Part shown: positions 40,772 through 54,777 of the stretch, piece after piece
Numbering within the stretch: the stretch's first letter is position 1
Layout of the letters: each line of letters begins with the position of its first letter
Source: Gammaproteobacteria bacterium
GTDB lineage: Bacteria; Pseudomonadota; Gammaproteobacteria; S012-40
Direction: 5' to 3'
Assembly (NCBI GenBank): GCA_029881255.1
Contig: JAOUMY010000004.1
Coordinates: forward strand, 209,313-273,312
Length of the DNA stretch: 64,000 nucleotides
Program-made: the position numbers and the translations under genes
The notes under the pieces: generated by a model
What the model saw: only the letters and a program-made list of their open reading frames with translations
Database searches by the model: none
Told to the model about the DNA's origin: nothing

Positions 40772-42982
40772 TCATTTAGTGGTCATTGTGTGGGAGCCGT
40801 CCCAATCATCTCCGGGTGGATTTTTTCGCAGCCAATTACATCTTTTTACCAATTCTTCGCTCACAGGATCATCTGAGAATTGCGACCAGATGGCTTTGGC
40901 TTTCTCCCAATCGCGTTTGAGGTAGGCCGCGAAGGCGTTTTCAGAGGCTTCTGCGGCGAGTTTGGCCTGCTTGAGATGTTCAGTCGAGCTGCGCTCTGGG
41001 TGAGCCAACGGACGATAGATGCGAATTGGATGTTGTTTTCCCTTTACCTTTACCAGGTCTAACATTTGACACGGCATGTCGACGCTCAGTCGTTGGTAGG
41101 TGTCTTCGGTAATGAGAATTTGACTATGGTAAGTTTTGGTTAGACCTTCGATACGTGAGGCGAGGTTAACGTTATCACCGATGATGGTGTAGTCGAGCTT
41201 GTTCTCAGAGCCAATGTTGCCAAGTATGGCGTCGCCGGTATGAATTCCAACACCAATTGCGATGGAGGGATACTGATTGGCCTGCAGCCATTTATTGACC
41301 TCCTGCAGACGATACAGCATGTCAACAGCAGCCAGGGTTGCACGATCCGCATGATTTTCGACTTTAATCGGCGCGCCCCAAAAAGCCATAATGGCATCGC
41401 CAATGAATTTGTCTATTGTGCCTTCATAGGTAAAGATTGCGTCTGTCATAGAAGAAAAGTAGTGATTAAGCATCTCCACTACTTTTTCTGGCGCGAGTTG
41501 TTCCGACATATTGGTGAAACTGCGTATGTCAGAAAAAAGAATCGAAATATTTTCCCGCGTTCCGACTTCGGCTTTGGCAAATTCCTCGTGATTGCTGACA
41601 ACAGTTTGTAGCACCGCAGGTGAAAGGTATTGCGACATCATGCGTTTGAACCGGCGTTTTTCCTTGCCCTCAGTAAACACCAGAACAGAGAATGCCAAAA
41701 CCCATGCGGCAACAATGGCAGTTGACGGCGCTGCCATCTCCAGTACCCATCCATGTTGAAACGCAAAATAGGCAGCTGAACCAAATCCAAGCAATATCCA
41801 GGCAGGGTTTGCATTCTTCGCCCAGCTACTACGCGGCATAAGCGAGCCTATGCTCGTCAGAATGGCGAGAAGAATAACCAGTAGCAATGTAAAAATGCGA
41901 TTGGGTGGCGTCAGGAAATCCTGATTCAAAATACTACTGGCGATGGACGCATGTATCATCACACCGGGCAAACGTGCGTCTATAGGGGTGTGTTTTAAGT
42001 CTTCCAGACCCGCCGCGCTTGCACCAACGAATACTATTTTGTCTTCAAAGAGCGCAGGGTCAACCATTAAATTTTCGAGATCACCATTCTGAATCTGAAA
42101 CTGCGATGCAATAAGACCCGAGTAGGAATAAGCAGGATAGTTTTCATAAAATTTCACCCACATGTGTTCTCTTTCATCTACTGGAATCTTTAGATCGCCA
42201 AAGTGAATATTTCCACCACGACGTACAATGTTGGGTGGTAGTATCTGATCGACTACACTTGTGACAGAAAGCGCTGGATAGATTTGTTCACCATAACGGT
42301 GAAACAGTCTTGCGGTACGGTAAACACCGTCATTTTCGCTATTCATGTCAACGACACCGATACCGTTAGCGGCATCTGCGAGTTCTGGAAACGGCAAATA
42401 GAAAACATTATTGGAGGGTGTTTTAATATCGATATTTAAATTGGTCACATCGAACTGACTTTGATAGCGATTTTCAAGGGACAAACGTTGCGCAAATGAC
42501 GGAGGGATATCCTGGTTGAGCAAACCTTTGTTGACATCATCTTCCTTATCTACAACCAGACGCATCGCGTGGTAGACGTTTGGTAGAATATGCGTCGTCA
42601 GTACCAGACGCTGATCGTGTGGATTGATATCTTCCACTTTAGGGTTGAACAGGGCTTTTTCAAAAAACGTAATATCAAATAGGACCGCACGTGGATTACC
42701 CAATGACAGGAAATCGATTAAATCGGCATGTATCGATCGTGGCCATGGCCAACGACCAGCGACATCATCGAGCGCATTCAATGATGCATCGTCTATGAGC
42801 ACAACAGCGACTCTGTCATCAAGTTGAGTTCCTTTTTGCGTATATGTCATGCGCAAATCATAACTCCAGCCTTCAGGCAGATTGAGTAGGCCTGAATAGT
42901 AGCTCGCGAGCGTAAAAGCAATACTCAAGGCGGCAATGAGTAGCGCGCGATGCAATTTAAATTCAGTTTTTTCTCTCGCCAT
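40772..42982 (-). CDS. CHASE2-domain class III adenylate cyclase
   Basis: Membrane enzyme of 736 residues. After an N-terminal membrane helix comes a periplasmic CHASE2 sensor (about 40-345; DRVAVVLIDDASLNALD, GRWPWPRSIHADLIDFL). Three membrane helices follow (about 355-440), then a class III cyclase domain (about 475-645). Metal-binding aspartates lie in LFSDIRSFTNMSEQL and KFIGDAIMAFWGAP, and the substrate region is KLDYTIIGDNVNLASRIEG. The Lys and Thr there fit the class IIIb adenylate pattern and are not a guanylate pair. It likely heads the operon with the SH3, M48 and FadL-like genes. The ligand sensed is unknown. Confidence 0.9.
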   Translation of the reverse strand: MAREKTEFKLHRALLIAALSIAFTLASYYSGLLNLPEGWSYDLRMTYTQKGTQLDDRVAVVLIDDASLNALDDVAGRWPWPRSIHADLIDFLSLGNPRAVLFDITFFEKALFNPKVEDINPHDQRLVLTTHILPNVYHAMRLVVDKEDDVNKGLLNQDIPPSFAQRLSLENRYQSQFDVTNLNIDIKTPSNNVFYLPFPELADAANGIGVVDMNSENDGVYRTARLFHRYGEQIYPALSVTSVVDQILPPNIVRRGGNIHFGDLKIPVDEREHMWVKFYENYPAYSYSGLIASQFQIQNGDLENLMVDPALFEDKIVFVGASAAGLEDLKHTPIDARLPGVMIHASIASSILNQDFLTPPNRIFTLLLVILLAILTSIGSLMPRSSWAKNANPAWILLGFGSAAYFAFQHGWVLEMAAPSTAIVAAWVLAFSVLVFTEGKEKRRFKRMMSQYLSPAVLQTVVSNHEEFAKAEVGTRENISILFSDIRSFTNMSEQLAPEKVVEMLNHYFSSMTDAIFTYEGTIDKFIGDAIMAFWGAPIKVENHADRATLAAVDMLYRLQEVNKWLQANQYPSIAIGVGIHTGDAILGNIGSENKLDYTIIGDNVNLASRIEGLTKTYHSQILITEDTYQRLSVDMPCQMLDLVKVKGKQHPIRIYRPLAHPERSSTEHLKQAKLAAEASENAFAAYLKRDWEKAKAIWSQFSDDPVSEELVKRCNWLRKNPPGDDWDGSHTMTTK

Positions 42983-43120: not shown

Positions 43121-43546
43121 ATGCATATTTTATCGGCGGGCGTTGTTGTGGTTCACAATGTTGACGGTGAGTACCGTTATCTGTTGCTGCGCGCCTTTCA
43201 ACACTGGGATTTTCCCAAGGGTATGGTCGAGGCAGGAGAGTCTCCAATTGAGGCCGCAATACGGGAGGTGTGGGAGGAAACCACACTCCAGGAATTGCAA
43301 TTTCATTGGACGGAGCAGTACAAAGAAACAGGCCCCTATGGTAGGGGGAAGGTCGCTCGCTACTATATCGCTGAAACACTGACTGACAAAGTGGATTTAC
43401 CCATTAACCCGGCCCTTGGACACGCAGAACACGAAGAATTTCGCTGGGTTAGCTTTGAACAGGCCAAACAGTTGATCTCACCCCGGGTGCGTACAGTGCT
43501 TGAATGGGCTCATGACATCATCAAATATCACAATCCTCGCAACTAG
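43121..43546 (+). CDS. Nudix hydrolase, likely Ap4A hydrolase type
   Basis: A 141-residue Nudix protein. The box GMVEAGESPIEAAIREVWEE spans residues 34-53 and fits GX5EX7REUXEE, followed by Thr rather than the usual Gly. The N-terminal SAGVVVVHN and the DFPKG just before the box match bis(5'-nucleosyl)-tetraphosphatases. It starts at ATG 43121, divergent from the cyclase gene, and precedes the CheW-LysM gene by 121 bases. The substrate is inferred from family resemblance. Confidence 0.88.
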   Translation: MHILSAGVVVVHNVDGEYRYLLLRAFQHWDFPKGMVEAGESPIEAAIREVWEETTLQELQFHWTEQYKETGPYGRGKVARYYIAETLTDKVDLPINPALGHAEHEEFRWVSFEQAKQLISPRVRTVLEWAHDIIKYHNPRN

Positions 43547-43667: not shown

Positions 43668-45641
43668 ATGAGAGCTATTGCAGAACAGGAACCATTGCTA
43701 ATTTTCCGTGTTGGCCCCGTGCTTTGTTGCGCACGCGTGCACGACGTGGATTCTATCGTTGTCCCTCAAAAATTCACTTATTTCCCTGGTCAATCAGAGG
43801 ATATCGCCGGCGTTTTCAAATACCGTACACATACCGTCTCGGTCGTAAAGCTGCGGGCCAAGTTTGGCTTGCCCGACCATGATAATGAAGAAAGCGGCCG
43901 AATTATCATGGCATATACCCGGCACGGTTTGACCGGGTTCTGGGCCGATGAAATTGAAGAGATTACCTCAGGTTATGAAGACAATCTCGCTGCGCCGCCA
44001 ATGTATAGTGATGGCAATGTATTTGATAAAACGCTGATCTGGAACGAGCATATCGTTTTGCATACCGATTTTGACGCCTTGTATGCGATGAAAGATGCAC
44101 GTCCATTATCTGCCTGGCTTGACGAAAACGCTGGGGAAGAACAGGCCCATCAAAGTGCTGACATCGTTGCATTGTCGGAACGTACCTTTACTGAGACCGA
44201 TGCAGAAGAAGTACACGTGGATAGCAGTGTCGCTGAAATGGTGTCAACTACTGAGGCTGCTACTGTTGATCCTTCCGTACAAGCAATTCCGATTGACGAC
44301 ATACAGAACGCGCATCCAGATCCAGAGCGTGAGAACCTTAGTGAAACAGTTGAGGCACAAGCGTCGGTCACCGAGGCTGCTACTACCGTAGTCGACCAGG
44401 TGGCCACGGACGAGACTGATCAAAACAATGCGGCGATTCCGCACACAACGGCTTTGCATGCCCCAGTAACTGGCCTGAATACCTCAGCCATTACTGACAC
44501 GCAGTTCCATGAGGCTTTAGATGCCCTGGACGGTCAGACAGAGCCCATGTCGTTCGACGAATCTGTAGAAGAAGTGTCTGAATTTTCTATTTCTGCGATA
44601 TCTCAAGCCGCGCAAGATGAGGACTTCGAACACGAAGAAGAATACGCCGCGCAAGATTCTGGTGAATCTGCGTTATTTGTTGCGACGCAGGAAGACGTCG
44701 CTGATGAAGACTCACTGCTAGCGTCTTCGTCATTTTCTGAGTCTCAAACGGCGAGCAAGGATTTCAATCAGACGCCTGTCTCAGTTGAAACGCGAGTTGA
44801 AAACGAAACCGAAGCTGAGTTTGATACCGATATTGGGACTGAAGCAAAAAGCGATGTCACATTTTCACTGGAACGCGAAACCTTCGATTTTAAATCGCCG
44901 GTTTCGGCAAAGAATTCCGTGCTCGATGAGGATCATATACGTGCGCCAGCATACGCGCCAGATCCCGTAAGGACCACTGATAGTGAAGCTCACGACAGAG
45001 TTGCTGTACCAAGGTCAATATTCCCACCGGTACGTTTTGTTGCCAGTGCCTCAGCACTGGTGCTGGTAGCAGCGATTGCCGGTTACGTCATTTTTAGTAA
45101 CGAAAGTGCTGAAGATGTTACACATGTTGCGCCTGTCGCAATTCAGGAAAGCGTAGAAGAACCAGCTATAGATGAAGATCTGCAACCGCTTACACCAGTA
45201 GAAGAATCATCGGAAACGCTAGCGAATGCCGGTGACGGAGATTCAATGGCGCCTGTAGAAGACGTTGTTGAGGCGAAAGAAAGCACTGCTTCTGTTGAAG
45301 TAGAAGAAGTTGCCGCAATTGAAGCCACCGAGGAAAGCGAACCTCCAGCGATAGAAGCCGATGTCGAAGTCGCTATGCAGGATGAGGCAATAGAAGTTGC
45401 GAGCACACCAGTGTTAAGCAGTTCGCCAACACCTCTGGAGCCCTTGCAACCACAACCTTCTCCTGTATGGGGCATACATACGATAAGCGATGGTGATACC
45501 CTATGGGCACTCGCTGGTCGGTATCTCAATAATCCTTATCGCTACCCTGATCTTGTGCATTGGAATAAAATAAGCAACCCAAATCTGATCTTTCCAGGAG
45601 ATCAGGTAAAATACAAAAAAGAGAAAAAAGGCGGAAAATAA
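43668..45641 (+). CDS. CheW-like domain fused to membrane anchor and LysM domain
   Basis: A 657-residue protein with an unusual architecture. Residues 9-143 form a CheW-like scaffold (LLIFRVGPVLCCARVHDVDS, GVFKYRTHTVSVVKLRAKFG, GLTGFWADEIEEI). Residues 150-450 are a very acidic, Ala/Thr/Ser-rich linker. One membrane helix lies at about 457-476 (RFVASASALVLVAAIAGYVI). A second acidic linker runs to about 600. A LysM domain closes the protein (603-650; IHTISDGDTLWALAGRYLNN). Topology: CheW in the cytoplasm, LysM in the periplasm on peptidoglycan. There is no clear ribosome site. No chemotaxis gene is adjacent, but a CHASE2 cyclase operon is divergent nearby. The layout recalls FimV, turned around. 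Confidence 0.88.
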   Translation: MRAIAEQEPLLIFRVGPVLCCARVHDVDSIVVPQKFTYFPGQSEDIAGVFKYRTHTVSVVKLRAKFGLPDHDNEESGRIIMAYTRHGLTGFWADEIEEITSGYEDNLAAPPMYSDGNVFDKTLIWNEHIVLHTDFDALYAMKDARPLSAWLDENAGEEQAHQSADIVALSERTFTETDAEEVHVDSSVAEMVSTTEAATVDPSVQAIPIDDIQNAHPDPERENLSETVEAQASVTEAATTVVDQVATDETDQNNAAIPHTTALHAPVTGLNTSAITDTQFHEALDALDGQTEPMSFDESVEEVSEFSISAISQAAQDEDFEHEEEYAAQDSGESALFVATQEDVADEDSLLASSSFSESQTASKDFNQTPVSVETRVENETEAEFDTDIGTEAKSDVTFSLERETFDFKSPVSAKNSVLDEDHIRAPAYAPDPVRTTDSEAHDRVAVPRSIFPPVRFVASASALVLVAAIAGYVIFSNESAEDVTHVAPVAIQESVEEPAIDEDLQPLTPVEESSETLANAGDGDSMAPVEDVVEAKESTASVEVEEVAAIEATEESEPPAIEADVEVAMQDEAIEVASTPVLSSSPTPLEPLQPQPSPVWGIHTISDGDTLWALAGRYLNNPYRYPDLVHWNKISNPNLIFPGDQVKYKKEKKGGK

Positions 45642-47073: not shown

Positions 47074-50000
47074 ATGACTTTGATAAGGTTTTTAAAACAG
47101 TTCTTGTTTGTGTCGATTGTGACGGTTGTAATAGCCGGTTGCGACGGCGACACATTTACTGCTACTGAAATTCCTCAGCTAAAGCCTGACGTTATTCCCA
47201 CTCTGGCGGGAATACAACTATCTCGTGGTGAGTTGTCGCCGGAATTTAATTCACTCGTATTCTCCTACAAATCCACATTGCCAAACAGCGCGGACAGTAT
47301 TTCGATTACACCTTTTCTACCGTCGGGCGCCGTTATTGATGTGCACATAAACGGGAATGCTGCTGATTTGGAAAACGGCAATACGGTATCGCTGGCTGAA
47401 GGCGATAATGTAGTCAGCATAACGCTGAAAAAGAAAAATGCCGTGTTACGTAGTTATAACCTGACGATAACTCGTGAAACAGTGGCCAATGTCAATTTGA
47501 CCTCTCTGTCACTGAGCACTGGAGAGTTGTCTCCCTCATTTAACACCGCAACAACCGAATACAGCGCAAGCGTTACGTCGGATGTTATGGAGATGATGTT
47601 GACGGCAAACACGGAAGACCCGGAAGCATCATTGACCATCAACGGGGTAGTGTCTCAGAGTGGAGTTGAAAGCGCGCCGGTATCATTGATAGAAGGCAGC
47701 AATATTATCAATGTTGCGGTGACCGCTAGCGATAGGGTGCAACAAAAAATCTATCGTATCGTGGTAGTCCGAGCGAAGGATCCTGCCAACTCGGCCTATC
47801 TGATGAGCCTGTCGCATTCAGCCGGAAGTTTAGATCAAACTTTCAGCTCCAACCTGACGTATTACTCCAGTACTGTGGCCAATAGTGTAAGCAGTACCAG
47901 CATTACCGCAACTGCGATGAACAGCAATGCGTTCATAAGTCTTAATGGTGCGACGATATTATCTGGGGTAGCCAGTACAGCACAGAATCTGGCAGTTGGT
48001 GACAACCTTTTTACAATATCCGTCAGCGCAAGTGGTAACGATACCTTAAACTATGTATTAGTTATTAAGCGATTGGCCAGCGCAAATGCGGATCTGTCAG
48101 ACCTAAACCTTTCTACTGGGGCAATTTCACCGATTTTCAGTTCCGCCACGACGACATACACACAGACTGTTAGCAATAGCGAAGCAAGTGTAGCGATTAC
48201 AGCGATTTCTGCACATGCGGACGCGACTCTATCAATAAATGGCAGCAGCATTTCCTCAGGTGTGGCAAGCACTTCCCTGGCGTTAAATGTGGGTGATAAC
48301 ATTTTCAATGTACAAGTATTGGCTCAGGACAAAACCGTTAAAACGTATAGTATTGTTGTCACGAGAGAAGGAAGTAGCAATGCCGATCTTTCCGCGCTGA
48401 GTCTGTCTTCTGGCGCATTCGATCAGGCGTTTGATCCAGGCACGCTAGCCTATACCCAAACGGTATTGAACGCGGTCAATTCGACAACAGTAACCGCCAG
48501 CGTCGCTGATAGTGCAGCAGCATTGAAGGTCAATAATGTTAGCGTTCCTTCTGGCGCTGCCAGTACGCCAATCAGCCTTGCAGAAGGACAGAATACCGTT
48601 AATGTCACCGTGGTAGCGCAGAATGGATCAATAAAAAATTACTTTATCGTGATCAATCGAGATTTGGCATCTCAAAGTAGCGATGCCACGCTTGCGGATC
48701 TCAGCTTATCTTCCGGTTCACTGGATACTTCCTTTGCGCCGCTGAGTCTCAACTATACACAGACAGTCACCAATGCGACATCATCATTAACAGTAACGCC
48801 GACAGCCAGTGATTCCAATGCCGTTGTGGAGGTTAACGGCAGTGGCGTAACTTCGGGGACTTCGAGTACCAGCATTCCCTTAAGTATCGGTTCAAATGTC
48901 ATTTCCGTGCCAGTAAAAGCCCAGGCGGGAAATATCAAAACATATACTATTGTGGTAAATCGTCTTGGCAGTAGCGACTCGAGCCTGTCAACGCTGACGT
49001 TCAGCACTGGAGGCTTAACGCCAATATTCAACAGCTCGACGCTCTCGTATACACATGTGGTTAGCAATGCCACAACATCGCTGACTGTAACACCAACAGT
49101 CAACGATGCGAACGCCAAAGTCAGAGTGAATGACATTTCGCTGACTTCCGGCAGCACCAGTGCGCCAATCGCCTTGAACGTCGGAGAAAACATCGTAACC
49201 GTATTGGTGATTGCACAGGATAACTCGACCAGTACATACACAATTGTCGTTTCTCGCCAGGGTAGTAGTAATGCGGATTTGAGTTCATTGCTTGCGTCAA
49301 CCGGCGGATTTAGTCCGTCGTTTGACTCTGCCACAACTTCATATACGCAGTCGGTCGCGTTTGCAACAACAAGTGTGGATATTACGCCAACGCTTGCGGA
49401 TGCCAATGCGTCGGTGACAGTAAATGGATTTGCGGTGACCTCAGGTGGCACAAAGACTGTTGTGCTTGCCGTAGGTGTAAATGTTATTAATGTGATTGCC
49501 AAGGCTCAAGATGGTACGTTAAAGACGTATACCATGACCATTACCCGAGCAGGAAATAACAATGCGGACCTCAGTGCATTAGTCCTGAGTACTGGCGCTA
49601 TTAGTCCGGCATTTGATTCTGCAACCTTGGCTTATACGCAATCGGTATCAAACGCGGTCACTAATGTTGATGTTATAGCGACCTTGGCGGATACCAATGC
49701 AACTATGACGGTGGAGAGTTACGCGCCAAGCTCCGGGACAACCGTCAGCGTCCCCTTGCTCGTCGGCGCAAATATCATTGACGTAACGGTAACCGCCGAG
49801 GATGGCTCTACGGTCAAGGTATACCAGGTAACGATTACTCGCGCACAAAGTAATAATGCAAACTTGTCGAATATTACCTTGTCCAGCGGCGCATTGGACC
49901 AGGTGTTTTCGAGCGCTACAACAACATATACTCACACCGTTTCAAATATACAGAGCACGATTTCCGCAGTAGCCATCTTGGAAGATGGTTCGGCCTCGAT

Positions 50001-53000
50001 AAAGATAAACGGCGTGAGTGTTGCGTCAGGACAGGCGAAATCCATTAGTTTGGTGGTTGGTGACAACGTCGTGACGTTTGACGTCACAGCACAAGATGGT
50101 ACGACTACAAAAGCATATATGCTTACTGTTACACGGTTGAGTAATGTTGGTGATTTATCTAATTTGACCGCCTCAACCGGTCCATTTGATCAGGCTTACG
50201 ATCTCAGTGTTCATACGTTTACACAAACAGTTGCCAATACCGTAACGAACGTAACGATTACTCCCACAGCAATGAATAGTGCTGCGTCAATCACGGTCAA
50301 TAGCTTGCCAGTACTTTCCGGAACCGCAAGCGATCCAATATCACTGAGTGTCGGCAGCAATGTAATCGATGTCGACATGATTGCGCAGGATGGTTCGTTA
50401 CACAAAGATGTCATTGTCATCGACAGGCTGGGTAGTAATAATGCGCAACTGTCGGATCTCTTACTTGATAGTGGCGCATATACACCCGTCTTCAGTAATA
50501 CAACGTTTGTTTATGATCAAACCGTCAGTAGCGCAACGACTAGTGTCACTGTTACGCCGACAGTCAGCGCTCCAACATCAACGGTCAGCGTCAATGGTGT
50601 TGATGTGACATCGGGCACTGCCAGCGCGCCAATAAATTTGAAAATCGGCGAAAATACGATTTATGTTTTGGTGAGTGCGCAGGACGGAAGCAAACAGCTC
50701 TATCGTACAACTATCACCCGCACCGGAAGTACAGACAATACCTTGTCCGCACTGAGCGCTTCTACCGGTGTTTTTGATCAAGTGTTTGATGCAGCAACAT
50801 TGCTCTATACCCAAACGGTTTCTAATGCTGTGAATAACGTTTCCATTACGCCTACAGTAAACGATGCCAATGCCACAGTGACGGTCAACGGAATAACGGT
50901 GACATCAGGCTCTGCCAGCACGGCTATCGCGCTGGGAATAGGCGATAATGTCATTCCAGTTGCTGTAACCGCGCAGAATGGCAGTAACAAAGTCTATACT
51001 GTCGAGATTAGTCGTCAGGGTAGTCTGGATGCAGATTTAGCGAGCATGAGTTTCTCTACGGGCGCTCTTACACCGGTTTTTGATCCTGCTACGACAGCAT
51101 ATACCCAACTGGTGAGCAACGCGACGACATCGACAGATATCACGCCAACAGTTAACGATGCCAATGCATTTGTTAGCATAAATGGCGCGCCGGTAACATC
51201 GGGAACAGCGAGCACTCAGACATTGAATATCGGTACGACCGCCTTTAGTGTGGTGGCTACCGCGCAACAAGGAAATACCAAGACCTATACCGTTAATATC
51301 ACGCGTAAGAGTACGAATGCGGATCTACGCAATCTGGTATTGTCAGTAGGCGGCATGGATCAGGCATTTGACGCGAATACCACAGCCTACACACGCACAG
51401 TGGGTTTTGCTACGACTAGCCTGACAGTGACGCCAACGGTCGATGATACAAACGCTACACTCACCGTAAATAGTATTGGCGTCTCTTCTGGGACAGCAAG
51501 CGGGGCGATCGGGCTGGGATTAGGTGATAATGTTATCACTGTTGTGGTAACGGCACAGGATGGCAACACCAAAACATATAGTATCACCGTTACCCGGGCG
51601 TCGAATGTTGCAACGCTTTCAGGTCTTAGTACTTCAAGTGGCGCAATCAGTCCTGTCTTTAGTTCAGTTACGCTAGCCTATACGCAAACCGTCGCCAATG
51701 GCATTACAACGACTACTGTCACACCGACGGCGACTGACTCAAATGCCACAATTGAGGTCAATGGCGTACCGGTAAGCTCCGGCTCGGCAAGCGGCGCAAT
51801 CGGTCTGAATATTGGGGAAAACGTAATTACTATTGCCGTTCGTGCTCAGGACAATACGCTCAAAAGTTATTCGCTAGTTGTGCGTCGCCTGGGTAGCAAT
51901 GACGCGACATTAGCAAGTCTCACTGCATCCAGCGGTGCTTTCGATCAGACGTTCGATCCGGCAGTAACAACTTATACCACTACCGTGCCGTTCACTACGA
52001 CGAGTGCGACGGTCACACCAACGGTTAATGATTTGAATGCAACAGTTAAAGTAAACGCCGTGTCAGTAACATCTGGCACGGCAAGCGCGCCGATGTCGCT
52101 GAGTCTCGGGGACAATATCTTTAGTGTTTCCGTCACCGCGCAGGACGGAACCTTAAAGACTTATACGGTCATCATGACCCGTTCTGGCAGCAGTAACGCA
52201 ACGCTGTCTAATCTTGTCGCTTCTACCGGCGTGTTCCTACAGGCATTTAGTTCAGGTACTACAACGTATACACAGACCGTAGCTGAGACAACGACGAATG
52301 TAAGCTTGACGCCTACTGTCAGCGATATCAACGCAACTGTTGCTGTGAACGGTACGAGCGTGATTTCGGGCACGGCAAGTCCATCTATTAATCTGAGTAT
52401 CGGGACCAATATCATCAATACGGTTGTCACGGCTCAGGATGGAAGCGTTAAAACCTATGTTGTGATAATTTTCCGCAATGGAAGTGGTGACGCTACCTTG
52501 TCTGGGTTGACTGCATCGCTTGGCGCCTTCGGTCAGACATTTGATCCGGCGGTGACGGTGTACACCAAGACAGTAACCTTTGGTGTAACCGGTACAACGA
52601 TTACGCCAACGACCACTGATGCAAATGCGACTGTCAAGGTGAATGATGTTGGCGTGGTTTCAGGTACGGCGAGTGGCAATATCGGTCTTGCGGTAGGTGA
52701 TAATATCATTTCAGTCATCGTTACTGCCGCTGATAATTCGACCAAGACTTATACTGTTATCATTACACGTAATGCGAGTAATAATGCAGACCTAAGCAGC
52801 CTGACAATAACGGCGGGCACATTGAGTCCATCATTTAGTAGTGCGACGACCAGCTATACAGCCACCGTTTCCAATGCAACGACGAGTCTCAATGCCTCAG
52901 CAACTATCAGCGATAGCGGCGCGACCATGACGATAAATAGTATTGCCAAGGCATCAGGGGAAATTCTAGCGGTTGCGCTAAATGTTGGCGTGAACAATAT

Positions 53001-54777
53001 CAACTTTGTAGTGACCGCATCGGATTCCAGCACCAGGACTTATACGGTTGCGGTTACGCGTCTAAGCAATAATGCGAATCTGGCGTCGCTTAGTGTTACA
53101 GGTGGGGCCATCGATCAGACTTTTGATCCAGCGTTAACATCGTATACCGTCACTGTTGGCTATCTCGTCAACTCTCTACAGGTGACGGCAACTGTCGAAG
53201 ACACCGGCGTGTCATCGATGACGATGAATAGCGTGGCCTTGAGTGACGGCGTTGTGTCTTCGAATCTGGTTAGTCTCGCAGTCGGTGCGAATACCGGCGC
53301 CGTTAGCCTGATGGTTACTGCACAGGATGGTACGACGAAAACCTATACCATCGACGTCGCACGTGATGATGTGAGTACGTTTGCGCAGCAGGCCTACGCC
53401 AAGGCGAATGATGCTGCATCGGCCAATCCTGGCGCCACTTCGGCCACCTATGAAGCGCTGTCAGCAGGTTCGAGCATGCCGTTGGCCGCTATGAAGGTAG
53501 CCATCTCAGGAAACTACATGGTGGTCGGTAATCGCGCGGCCTATGGCGATCAGGGTATTGCATACGTGTATTATCGTGACCCGACAACCAATAACTGGAG
53601 TCAGCAGGCCACCTTGCTTGGCAATAACACAGAGGCAGGCGATCATTTCGGCGCCGCCGTTGCGATTGATGGCGATACGATTGCTATCGGCGCACCAAAA
53701 GAACGTGGCGGCATAGGCGGTATAAACGCGCCAGACAATAACAGTAATCCTGCAAGTTATGCGGCCGGCGCTGTTTATGTATTCCAGCGTAGCGGAACGA
53801 CCTGGATACATCAGGCCAAATTGAAAGAACCCGACGGCAACATCAATATCAAGTTCAATGAATTTGGATCCTCAGTGGCAGTATCTGGCAATGTAGTCAC
53901 GGTCGGCGTGCCACTGGAGGAGAGTAGCAGTACCGTCATAACGGATATGAATGTCAGCGCAGCGCCAATAGACAAACTCGCTGCTGAATCCGGCGCTGTC
54001 TATGCGTTCTTGCGTACTGGAACGACCTGGGCCTATGAGGCGCACATAAAAGTATCCAGCGGTGTTGGTGGTGATCGCTGGGGACATGATATTGCGATGG
54101 ACGGAAATACGCTTGCTGTAAGCAGCATTTTGAATAACGGAGGCACCGGTGCGGTGGCAGTATTTGTGCGTGATTCGCTTACTGCGACCTGGACGCAACA
54201 AGGCGGTATACTGACGGCCCCCGCGCCATCCTCAAATGATTTGTTTGGCTGGTCTGTCGATATCAATGCGAATACCATCGTCGTTGGCGCTCCGCTGGAA
54301 GATACTACGGCGGCAGATTCCGGTGCAGTTATGGCTTATTTGCGTACGGGCACAACCTGGGCATGGCAGGCTAATATTAAATCCAGTGTTGCGGATGCCG
54401 GTGACCACTTCGGTAAAGATGTCAGTCTCGCAGGAGATACCTTGGTAGTCGGTGCGCCAATGGAAGACAGCAATGCGATGGGAATTAGTGGAATGCCAAA
54501 CACTAATGACGATATCAATAACCCGAGTTCAACCGCGGAGCACGGTGCCGCAAACATATTTATACGCAGCGGCACAACATGGACGCAAACTGCCTATATC
54601 AAGGCATATAACACCGGACAGACAGATAAGTTTGGCGCTGCGGTCGCAATCGATGGTGATACGGTTGGTATTGCGGCCCCTCTGGAAGATGCGGATCATG
54701 TATCGGTCTCTAATCCGCAGCCGGCGACAGACAATGACTTAAGAAGTAATAGTGGCGCGGTCTATATCTTCAAATAA
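47074..54777 (+). CDS. Giant lipoprotein: 21 cadherin-like repeats plus FG-GAP propeller
   Basis: A 2567-residue surface-protein candidate. A signal sequence ends in the lipobox VIAGC (Cys23). From about residue 42 to 2095 it has 21 tandem repeats of about 98 residues, each following L(S/A)xLxxS(T/S)Gxxx(P/Q)xFxxxxxxYxxxV ... VxVNGxxVxSGxAS ... LxxGxNxIxVxVxAQDGxxKTYxxxxxR. This is the cadherin-like beta-sandwich family. The last 460 residues form seven FG-GAP-like blades (GDHFGAAVAIDGDTIAIGAP and six relatives, with SGAVYxFxR strands), predicting an integrin-alpha-type seven-bladed propeller at the distal end. It likely forms a long stalk with a binding head. It stands alone. Confidence 0.9.
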   Translation: MTLIRFLKQFLFVSIVTVVIAGCDGDTFTATEIPQLKPDVIPTLAGIQLSRGELSPEFNSLVFSYKSTLPNSADSISITPFLPSGAVIDVHINGNAADLENGNTVSLAEGDNVVSITLKKKNAVLRSYNLTITRETVANVNLTSLSLSTGELSPSFNTATTEYSASVTSDVMEMMLTANTEDPEASLTINGVVSQSGVESAPVSLIEGSNIINVAVTASDRVQQKIYRIVVVRAKDPANSAYLMSLSHSAGSLDQTFSSNLTYYSSTVANSVSSTSITATAMNSNAFISLNGATILSGVASTAQNLAVGDNLFTISVSASGNDTLNYVLVIKRLASANADLSDLNLSTGAISPIFSSATTTYTQTVSNSEASVAITAISAHADATLSINGSSISSGVASTSLALNVGDNIFNVQVLAQDKTVKTYSIVVTREGSSNADLSALSLSSGAFDQAFDPGTLAYTQTVLNAVNSTTVTASVADSAAALKVNNVSVPSGAASTPISLAEGQNTVNVTVVAQNGSIKNYFIVINRDLASQSSDATLADLSLSSGSLDTSFAPLSLNYTQTVTNATSSLTVTPTASDSNAVVEVNGSGVTSGTSSTSIPLSIGSNVISVPVKAQAGNIKTYTIVVNRLGSSDSSLSTLTFSTGGLTPIFNSSTLSYTHVVSNATTSLTVTPTVNDANAKVRVNDISLTSGSTSAPIALNVGENIVTVLVIAQDNSTSTYTIVVSRQGSSNADLSSLLASTGGFSPSFDSATTSYTQSVAFATTSVDITPTLADANASVTVNGFAVTSGGTKTVVLAVGVNVINVIAKAQDGTLKTYTMTITRAGNNNADLSALVLSTGAISPAFDSATLAYTQSVSNAVTNVDVIATLADTNATMTVESYAPSSGTTVSVPLLVGANIIDVTVTAEDGSTVKVYQVTITRAQSNNANLSNITLSSGALDQVFSSATTTYTHTVSNIQSTISAVAILEDGSASIKINGVSVASGQAKSISLVVGDNVVTFDVTAQDGTTTKAYMLTVTRLSNVGDLSNLTASTGPFDQAYDLSVHTFTQTVANTVTNVTITPTAMNSAASITVNSLPVLSGTASDPISLSVGSNVIDVDMIAQDGSLHKDVIVIDRLGSNNAQLSDLLLDSGAYTPVFSNTTFVYDQTVSSATTSVTVTPTVSAPTSTVSVNGVDVTSGTASAPINLKIGENTIYVLVSAQDGSKQLYRTTITRTGSTDNTLSALSASTGVFDQVFDAATLLYTQTVSNAVNNVSITPTVNDANATVTVNGITVTSGSASTAIALGIGDNVIPVAVTAQNGSNKVYTVEISRQGSLDADLASMSFSTGALTPVFDPATTAYTQLVSNATTSTDITPTVNDANAFVSINGAPVTSGTASTQTLNIGTTAFSVVATAQQGNTKTYTVNITRKSTNADLRNLVLSVGGMDQAFDANTTAYTRTVGFATTSLTVTPTVDDTNATLTVNSIGVSSGTASGAIGLGLGDNVITVVVTAQDGNTKTYSITVTRASNVATLSGLSTSSGAISPVFSSVTLAYTQTVANGITTTTVTPTATDSNATIEVNGVPVSSGSASGAIGLNIGENVITIAVRAQDNTLKSYSLVVRRLGSNDATLASLTASSGAFDQTFDPAVTTYTTTVPFTTTSATVTPTVNDLNATVKVNAVSVTSGTASAPMSLSLGDNIFSVSVTAQDGTLKTYTVIMTRSGSSNATLSNLVASTGVFLQAFSSGTTTYTQTVAETTTNVSLTPTVSDINATVAVNGTSVISGTASPSINLSIGTNIINTVVTAQDGSVKTYVVIIFRNGSGDATLSGLTASLGAFGQTFDPAVTVYTKTVTFGVTGTTITPTTTDANATVKVNDVGVVSGTASGNIGLAVGDNIISVIVTAADNSTKTYTVIITRNASNNADLSSLTITAGTLSPSFSSATTSYTATVSNATTSLNASATISDSGATMTINSIAKASGEILAVALNVGVNNINFVVTASDSSTRTYTVAVTRLSNNANLASLSVTGGAIDQTFDPALTSYTVTVGYLVNSLQVTATVEDTGVSSMTMNSVALSDGVVSSNLVSLAVGANTGAVSLMVTAQDGTTKTYTIDVARDDVSTFAQQAYAKANDAASANPGATSATYEALSAGSSMPLAAMKVAISGNYMVVGNRAAYGDQGIAYVYYRDPTTNNWSQQATLLGNNTEAGDHFGAAVAIDGDTIAIGAPKERGGIGGINAPDNNSNPASYAAGAVYVFQRSGTTWIHQAKLKEPDGNINIKFNEFGSSVAVSGNVVTVGVPLEESSSTVITDMNVSAAPIDKLAAESGAVYAFLRTGTTWAYEAHIKVSSGVGGDRWGHDIAMDGNTLAVSSILNNGGTGAVAVFVRDSLTATWTQQGGILTAPAPSSNDLFGWSVDINANTIVVGAPLEDTTAADSGAVMAYLRTGTTWAWQANIKSSVADAGDHFGKDVSLAGDTLVVGAPMEDSNAMGISGMPNTNDDINNPSSTAEHGAANIFIRSGTTWTQTAYIKAYNTGQTDKFGAAVAIDGDTVGIAAPLEDADHVSVSNPQPATDNDLRSNSGAVYIFK
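47197..53365 (+). repeat. Array of 21 tandem ~294-bp coding repeats
   Basis: Within the giant lipoprotein gene, 21 head-to-tail units of about 291-303 bp encode the cadherin-like domains. Units differ in DNA sequence but keep recurring phrases such as ACxGTxAAxGATGCxAATGC and GCxCAGGATGG. Such arrays can change copy number by recombination. Confidence 0.85.

Follow-up and report, generated by a model that had tools for sequence, protein, structure and literature searches.

Organization of the locus

The stretch of DNA analysed here (the window, 64,000 nucleotides) contains at 43668..45641 a forward-strand gene that joins a CheW domain to a LysM domain within one open reading frame. The frame begins with ATG, has no internal stop, and encodes a protein of 657 residues. 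The CheW domain occupies residues 10-139 (43695..44084) and is followed by an acidic linker of ~300 residues (residues 151-457; 44118..45038; 23% Asp plus Glu) that is predicted to be cytoplasmic, a single transmembrane helix (residues 458-476; 45039..45095; mean Kyte-Doolittle value 2.3), a second acidic linker of ~120 residues that is predicted to be periplasmic (residues 477-600; 45096..45467; 26% Asp plus Glu), and the LysM domain (residues 604-648; 45477..45611), all on the same strand. There are three Lys or Arg residues in the 20 positions before the helix and none in the 20 after it, and this enrichment of basic residues on the CheW side is shared by the window protein and most of its relatives. 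From this charge distribution the CheW end is predicted to lie in the cytoplasm and the LysM end in the periplasm.

Both end domains score above the Pfam cut-offs and thus belong to their families. CheW (PF01584) matches with E 1.3e-14 for the whole protein and 1.5e-15 for the domain alone (57.4 bits against a cut-off of 23.5), and LysM (PF01476) matches with E 6.4e-8 (32.9 bits against 20.9). A first-pass annotation made from the sequence had described a CheW-like domain at residues 9-143, two long acidic linkers, a membrane helix at 457-476 and a C-terminal LysM domain at 603-650; each of these features is borne out, the best hydrophobic segment being 458-476, and its residue numbers are off by a few positions only. 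Its general plan of a membrane-anchored CheW domain, predicted to be cytoplasmic, joined to LysM through one helix likewise holds, and proves to be a recurring and conserved design.

Just upstream of the fusion gene and on the same strand is a NUDIX hydrolase gene (43121..43546; Pfam E 3e-21), and beyond it a divergently transcribed gene on the minus strand (40772..42982) encodes an adenylate/guanylate cyclase with a CHASE2 domain (CHASE2 E 4e-48; Guanylate_cyc E 2e-28). The fusion has no che, pil or flagellar gene next to it, and scans for promoters and terminators gave matches at chance level only. Further along the window (47074-54777) we note a protein of 2567 residues, apparently a giant surface protein, that contains 21 cadherin-like repeat domains together with FG-GAP repeats.

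Folds of the two end domains

An AlphaFold2 model of residues 1-151, built with nine input sequences, has a pLDDT of 82 and a pTM of 0.80 and shows the two-subdomain SH3-like fold of CheW. CheW structures are the best Foldseek matches (E 6e-12), and VIA-align superimposes the model on TtCheW (2qdl) with a Z score of 18.6 over 137 residues (rmsd 1.9) and on E. coli CheW (8c5v) with a Z score of 17.9. Z scores range from 11.5 to 18.6 across solved structures of CheW and CheA P5, no other structure fits well, and the structure prediction proposed in the first-pass annotation supports the CheW fold. A profile search of the PDB with nine CheW regions of the fusion type matched CheW proteins only. 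The LysM domain is closest in sequence, among solved structures, to the LysM of TsaP (6ve2 and 3jc8). The full-length AlphaFold2 model is uninformative (pLDDT 31).

Distribution of the fusion

Twenty intact CheW-helix-LysM proteins, counting only single frames that bear both domains, are present in 15 independently assembled genomes from six families, and the window protein and all twelve further relatives tested pass the Pfam cut-offs for both domains. These copies in separate assemblies dispose of the concern, raised with the original annotation together with a proposal to survey genomes for the same fusion, that two genes had been joined in assembly. That the fusion is an artefact of assembly or gene calling is scarcely credible: nothing about the window gene points to it, and the only observation that leans that way is that two of the more distant relatives have their domains in different frames, perhaps through frameshifts.

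The fusions fall into three groups. Group A consists of the window protein and its orthologues in family f1, which occupy the same genomic place; the fusion is absent from this conserved site in two f1 genomes (G002 and G010). Group B is a second paralogue, of which the window genome has a copy (G000:C13, 549 residues), as do most relatives, and the two paralogous lines co-occur in several genomes, that of the window included. Group C comprises more distant relatives in other families, and in three genomes (G249, G189 and G136) its gene lies between or near ksgA and apaG, as named by sequence recognition. Two group C loci near ksgA and apaG, L130 (G189) and L134 (G136), carry the CheW and LysM parts in different frames, which may reflect a frameshift, either programmed or arising from sequencing error.

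About a dozen of the 274 genomes sampled from the class are carriers, some with the fusion split over contigs or frames, and a phylum-wide sample of 398 genomes (E<=1e-24) yielded no carrier beyond the window genome, although scoring was confined to two candidates per genome and rare carriers could escape. The fusion is therefore recurrent but sparse. Scanning named genomes with the whole protein recovered no relative, and a scan with a four-row CheW alignment gave three relatives labelled 'Gammaproteobacteria bacterium' and otherwise only ordinary CheW proteins of the Geobacter type. Since several families of uncultured Gammaproteobacteria share the fusion, it represents a real and apparently undescribed type of protein. 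In a literature search limited to open-access papers no CheW-LysM protein was described, which is limited evidence that the type is new. The parts are known, their joining is new to us, and we place the protein among the array-anchoring CheW-like proteins.

Four long CheW frames (L135:6766-8322, L136:5927-7474, L137:6263-7702 and L138:5618-7216; 479-532 residues) were set aside, as they have CheW matches in three stretches and lack LysM; they are possible tandem-CheW proteins. A 774-residue protein at L128:6213-8537 (G112:C109) has a membrane helix and a LysM domain of the same type without CheW, and adjoins MCP-like and CheB-like genes; it is possibly a CheW-less relative of the fusion.

CheA is encoded in all 21 of the carrier genomes tested, and a FliG_C match is present in 19 of the 21.

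Conserved ends and unconserved spacers

Conservation was measured as mean pairwise identity over seven group A proteins relative to shuffled sequence. The CheW end is 43% identical (17% when shuffled) and the LysM end 48% (21%), whereas linker 1, the helix and linker 2 show 28%, 17% and 23% identity against shuffled values of 27%, 15% and 24%, respectively. The linkers and the helix are always present among these seven proteins even though their sequence is at the shuffled level, and linker length in group A varies from 72 to 624 residues. Since only the ends are conserved, selection keeps the two domains, their joining and the crossing of the membrane, not the sequence between them, which is the pattern of a tether.

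These same features bear on whether the protein might be a sensor of the wall or envelope, in which the CheW domain would pass strain or the status of murein from LysM to CheA and thus provide a signal input instead of a mere anchor. Such a protein would physically connect murein with a kinase-coupling fold without interruption, every carrier has a CheA for it to act upon, and the retention of a paralogue pair in several genomes suggests distinct inputs. However, unconserved linkers of such variable length are poorly suited to transmit force or conformational change, and the helix is conserved in hydrophobicity only. We consider signal input of this kind quite improbable.

CheW residues and phylogeny

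In Thermotoga maritima CheW the hydrophobic positions of the receptor groove are L14, V27, I30 and V33 (PMC5706961). Their equivalents in the fusion are L11, V24, V27 and I30, where every group A protein has a hydrophobic or small residue. In E. coli CheW numbering, R62 and G57 are important positions, and E38, N60 and G63 are further canonical coupling positions. All group A proteins have Arg and Gly at the R62 and G57 equivalents, and these and the groove positions are mostly retained in group B. The E38 equivalent is an invariant Ser in group A and those of N60 and G63 are changed, and in group C the R62 arginine is missing altogether. Departures of this kind seem to extend to ParP, judging by the ParP-like protein of the window genome, which has Asn in place of R62 and Trp in place of G57. 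Because some canonical positions are kept and others changed, and because the ParP-like protein departs as well, the residues permit docking in an array but do not prove it.

The CheW domains of the fusions form one clade apart from the CheW, CheV and PilI proteins of the window genome (support 99/99), and the fusion group persists with support of 96/99 when CheA domains and ParP are added. The ParP-like sequence joins near the fusions in this tree, on a very long branch (3.67).

A different partner for the CheW fold would also be consistent with parts of this picture. The fold could have been recruited into a polar or septal scaffold, a hub resembling FimV, in which it binds something other than an array, as the changed coupling positions (E38, N60 and G63), the loss of R62 in group C, the well separated clade and the varied gene surroundings without che genes, exemplified by the ksgA-apaG position of group C, would suggest. 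Against this stand the groove and the R62 and G57 equivalents, kept in group A and mostly in group B, and the presence of CheA in every carrier, and we regard recruitment to a non-array partner as unlikely, while giving it some weight.

Genomic context and relationship to type IV pilus chemosensory systems

Group A loci in family f1 share a syntenic arrangement in which the NUDIX gene lies upstream of the fusion and is accompanied by the divergent CHASE2-cyclase gene, SH3 and M48 peptidase genes, and a fourth conserved gene. The cyclase is present in 13 of 13 f1 genomes, including the two (G002 and G010) that lack the fusion at the site, and does not adjoin the fusion in groups B and C.

The first-pass annotation had proposed that the protein is a docking site specific to the Pil-Chp array of type IV pili, with a link to cAMP. 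Several observations appear to favour this. TsaP, whose LysM is nearest in sequence, is a pilus-secretin-associated protein; the window genome encodes a ChpA of 1840 residues; and in family f1 a CHASE2 adenylate cyclase is next door. However, a search at E<=1e-60 finds no ChpA in five group A carriers (G001, G004, G007, G008 and G009), three of which are 94-100% complete, so the fusion apparently does not depend on Pil-Chp. The cAMP link is weakened in a similar way, as the cyclase is kept with or without the fusion and is not its neighbour in the other two groups, and a likeness between LysM domains over 45 residues is weak evidence of common function. A role specific to Pil-Chp is consequently very improbable.

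Comparison with known CheW and polar proteins

Five CheA-type kinases are encoded at separate loci of the window genome, which include a che cluster with ParC-like and ParP-like genes and a pil-chp cluster; the ParP-like protein (L047:7820-8857) is encoded away from the fusion gene, and there is a canonical FimV of 1075 residues (FimV_N E 1e-35; FimV_core E 5e-20). Because this FimV and the ParC/ParP-like pair are kept, the fusion is an addition to the known positioning proteins and not a replacement for them.

FimV and HubP resemble the fusion in having LysM, one membrane helix and a long acidic cytoplasmic region, and the plan had been thought to mirror that of FimV. In FimV and HubP, however, LysM is N-terminal and periplasmic, the C-terminal cytoplasmic region carries TPRs, and CheW is lacking, so that both the order and the predicted topology of the fusion are the reverse. 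Pfam and NCBIfam scans find no match to FimV_N, FimV_core or TPR in the fusion at E<=1, whereas the genome's real FimV matches FimV_N and FimV_core, and the suggestion that the protein merges the roles of CheW and FimV is thereby undermined.

There is a parallel in design with ParP, which likewise links a CheW-like domain through a long linker to a localisation device. The CheW-like AIF domain of ParP is C-terminal and its anchor is a separate protein, ParC, whereas in the fusion CheW is N-terminal (residues 10-139) and the anchor, a helix and LysM, is part of the same chain; nor does the fusion gene lie beside parC in a che cluster, its neighbours being the NUDIX, CHASE2-cyclase, SH3 and M48 genes. 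Ordinary CheW shares with group A the fold, the receptor-groove positions and the R62 and G57 equivalents, but is a small soluble single-domain protein of ~160 residues, whereas the fusion has 657 residues, is predicted to be anchored in the membrane and wall, falls in a clade of its own and differs at the E38, N60 and G63 equivalents. CheV similarly combines a CheW domain with a further functional module, in this case a receiver domain, but it is soluble. With TsaP the comparison concerns the LysM part alone, TsaP being a periplasmic, secretin-associated protein that lacks CheW.

A proposed model for wall anchoring of chemosensory arrays

The best-supported scenario is that the fusion acts as a membrane-spanning tether with its CheW domain docked in an array of CheA and MCPs and its LysM domain on peptidoglycan, a reading that we hold to be about evenly balanced between right and wrong. 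The N-terminal CheW domain would dock into the CheA/receptor baseplate, the first acidic linker, which is probably disordered, would span the distance from baseplate to membrane, and the single helix would cross the membrane into the flexible periplasmic linker, beyond which the C-terminal LysM would grip peptidoglycan and so hold the array at its place on the cell wall. Docking, murein binding and positioning as the purpose are what we infer from two domains above their Pfam cut-offs, the CheW fold, the conserved ends, the retained groove with R62 and G57, and CheA in 21 of 21 carriers. Weighing against the tether are the changed E38, N60 and G63 equivalents and the loss of R62 in group C, by which docking may be weakened or different, and the lack of che, pil or flagellar neighbours.

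There is precedent for both halves of such a tether, which would act in the manner of ParP and of the LysM part of HubP and FimV but combine the two in a single chain. In Vibrio, ParP inserts its CheW-like domain into arrays by way of MCPs and CheA and links them to ParC, its anchor at the pole. Coupling a CheW-like domain to a polar anchor is enough there to place arrays, and a swapped-in CheA P5 domain is likewise sufficient for localisation (PMC5706961). The LysM domain of HubP is critical to its polar localisation (PMC8789113).

The tether might go further and be a self-contained wall-anchored coupler that needs neither ParC or HubP nor the clustering of receptors at curved membrane, with peptidoglycan setting array position directly and each of the cell's two paralogues devoted to its own array or site; this extension is tentative and we think it rather doubtful. 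Array positioning is known for few systems, namely ParC/ParP/HubP and receptor-driven clustering, and a conserved protein that has the coupling fold and a murein-binding domain in one chain would make direct anchoring to the wall testable with a single gene. If the tether is real, a membrane-spanning member would join the coupling proteins, of which the known ones (CheW, CheV and ParP) are soluble.

Other chemosensory and motility features

Among other features of the carrier genomes, we note that the only FliG_C match in the window genome is weak (E 2e-19) and lies in a 710-residue frame (G000:C4:69673-69990), although flagellar genes are present and completeness is 99%, whereas a strong FliG match in a frame of 333-374 residues is present in 18 of the 20 other carriers. 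The window genome also encodes on the minus strand a CheA of 869 residues (L049:12790-15399, G000:C3) that contains a Globin domain within the chain (residues 280-379; Pfam E 3.5e-10), and its cluster includes a second globin-bearing protein of ~980 residues (G000:C3:453833-454147). Similar pairs of globin-bearing frames share a contig with CheA in G006, G007 and G045, and this globin-bearing chemosensory cluster suggests a gas- or redox-sensing array.
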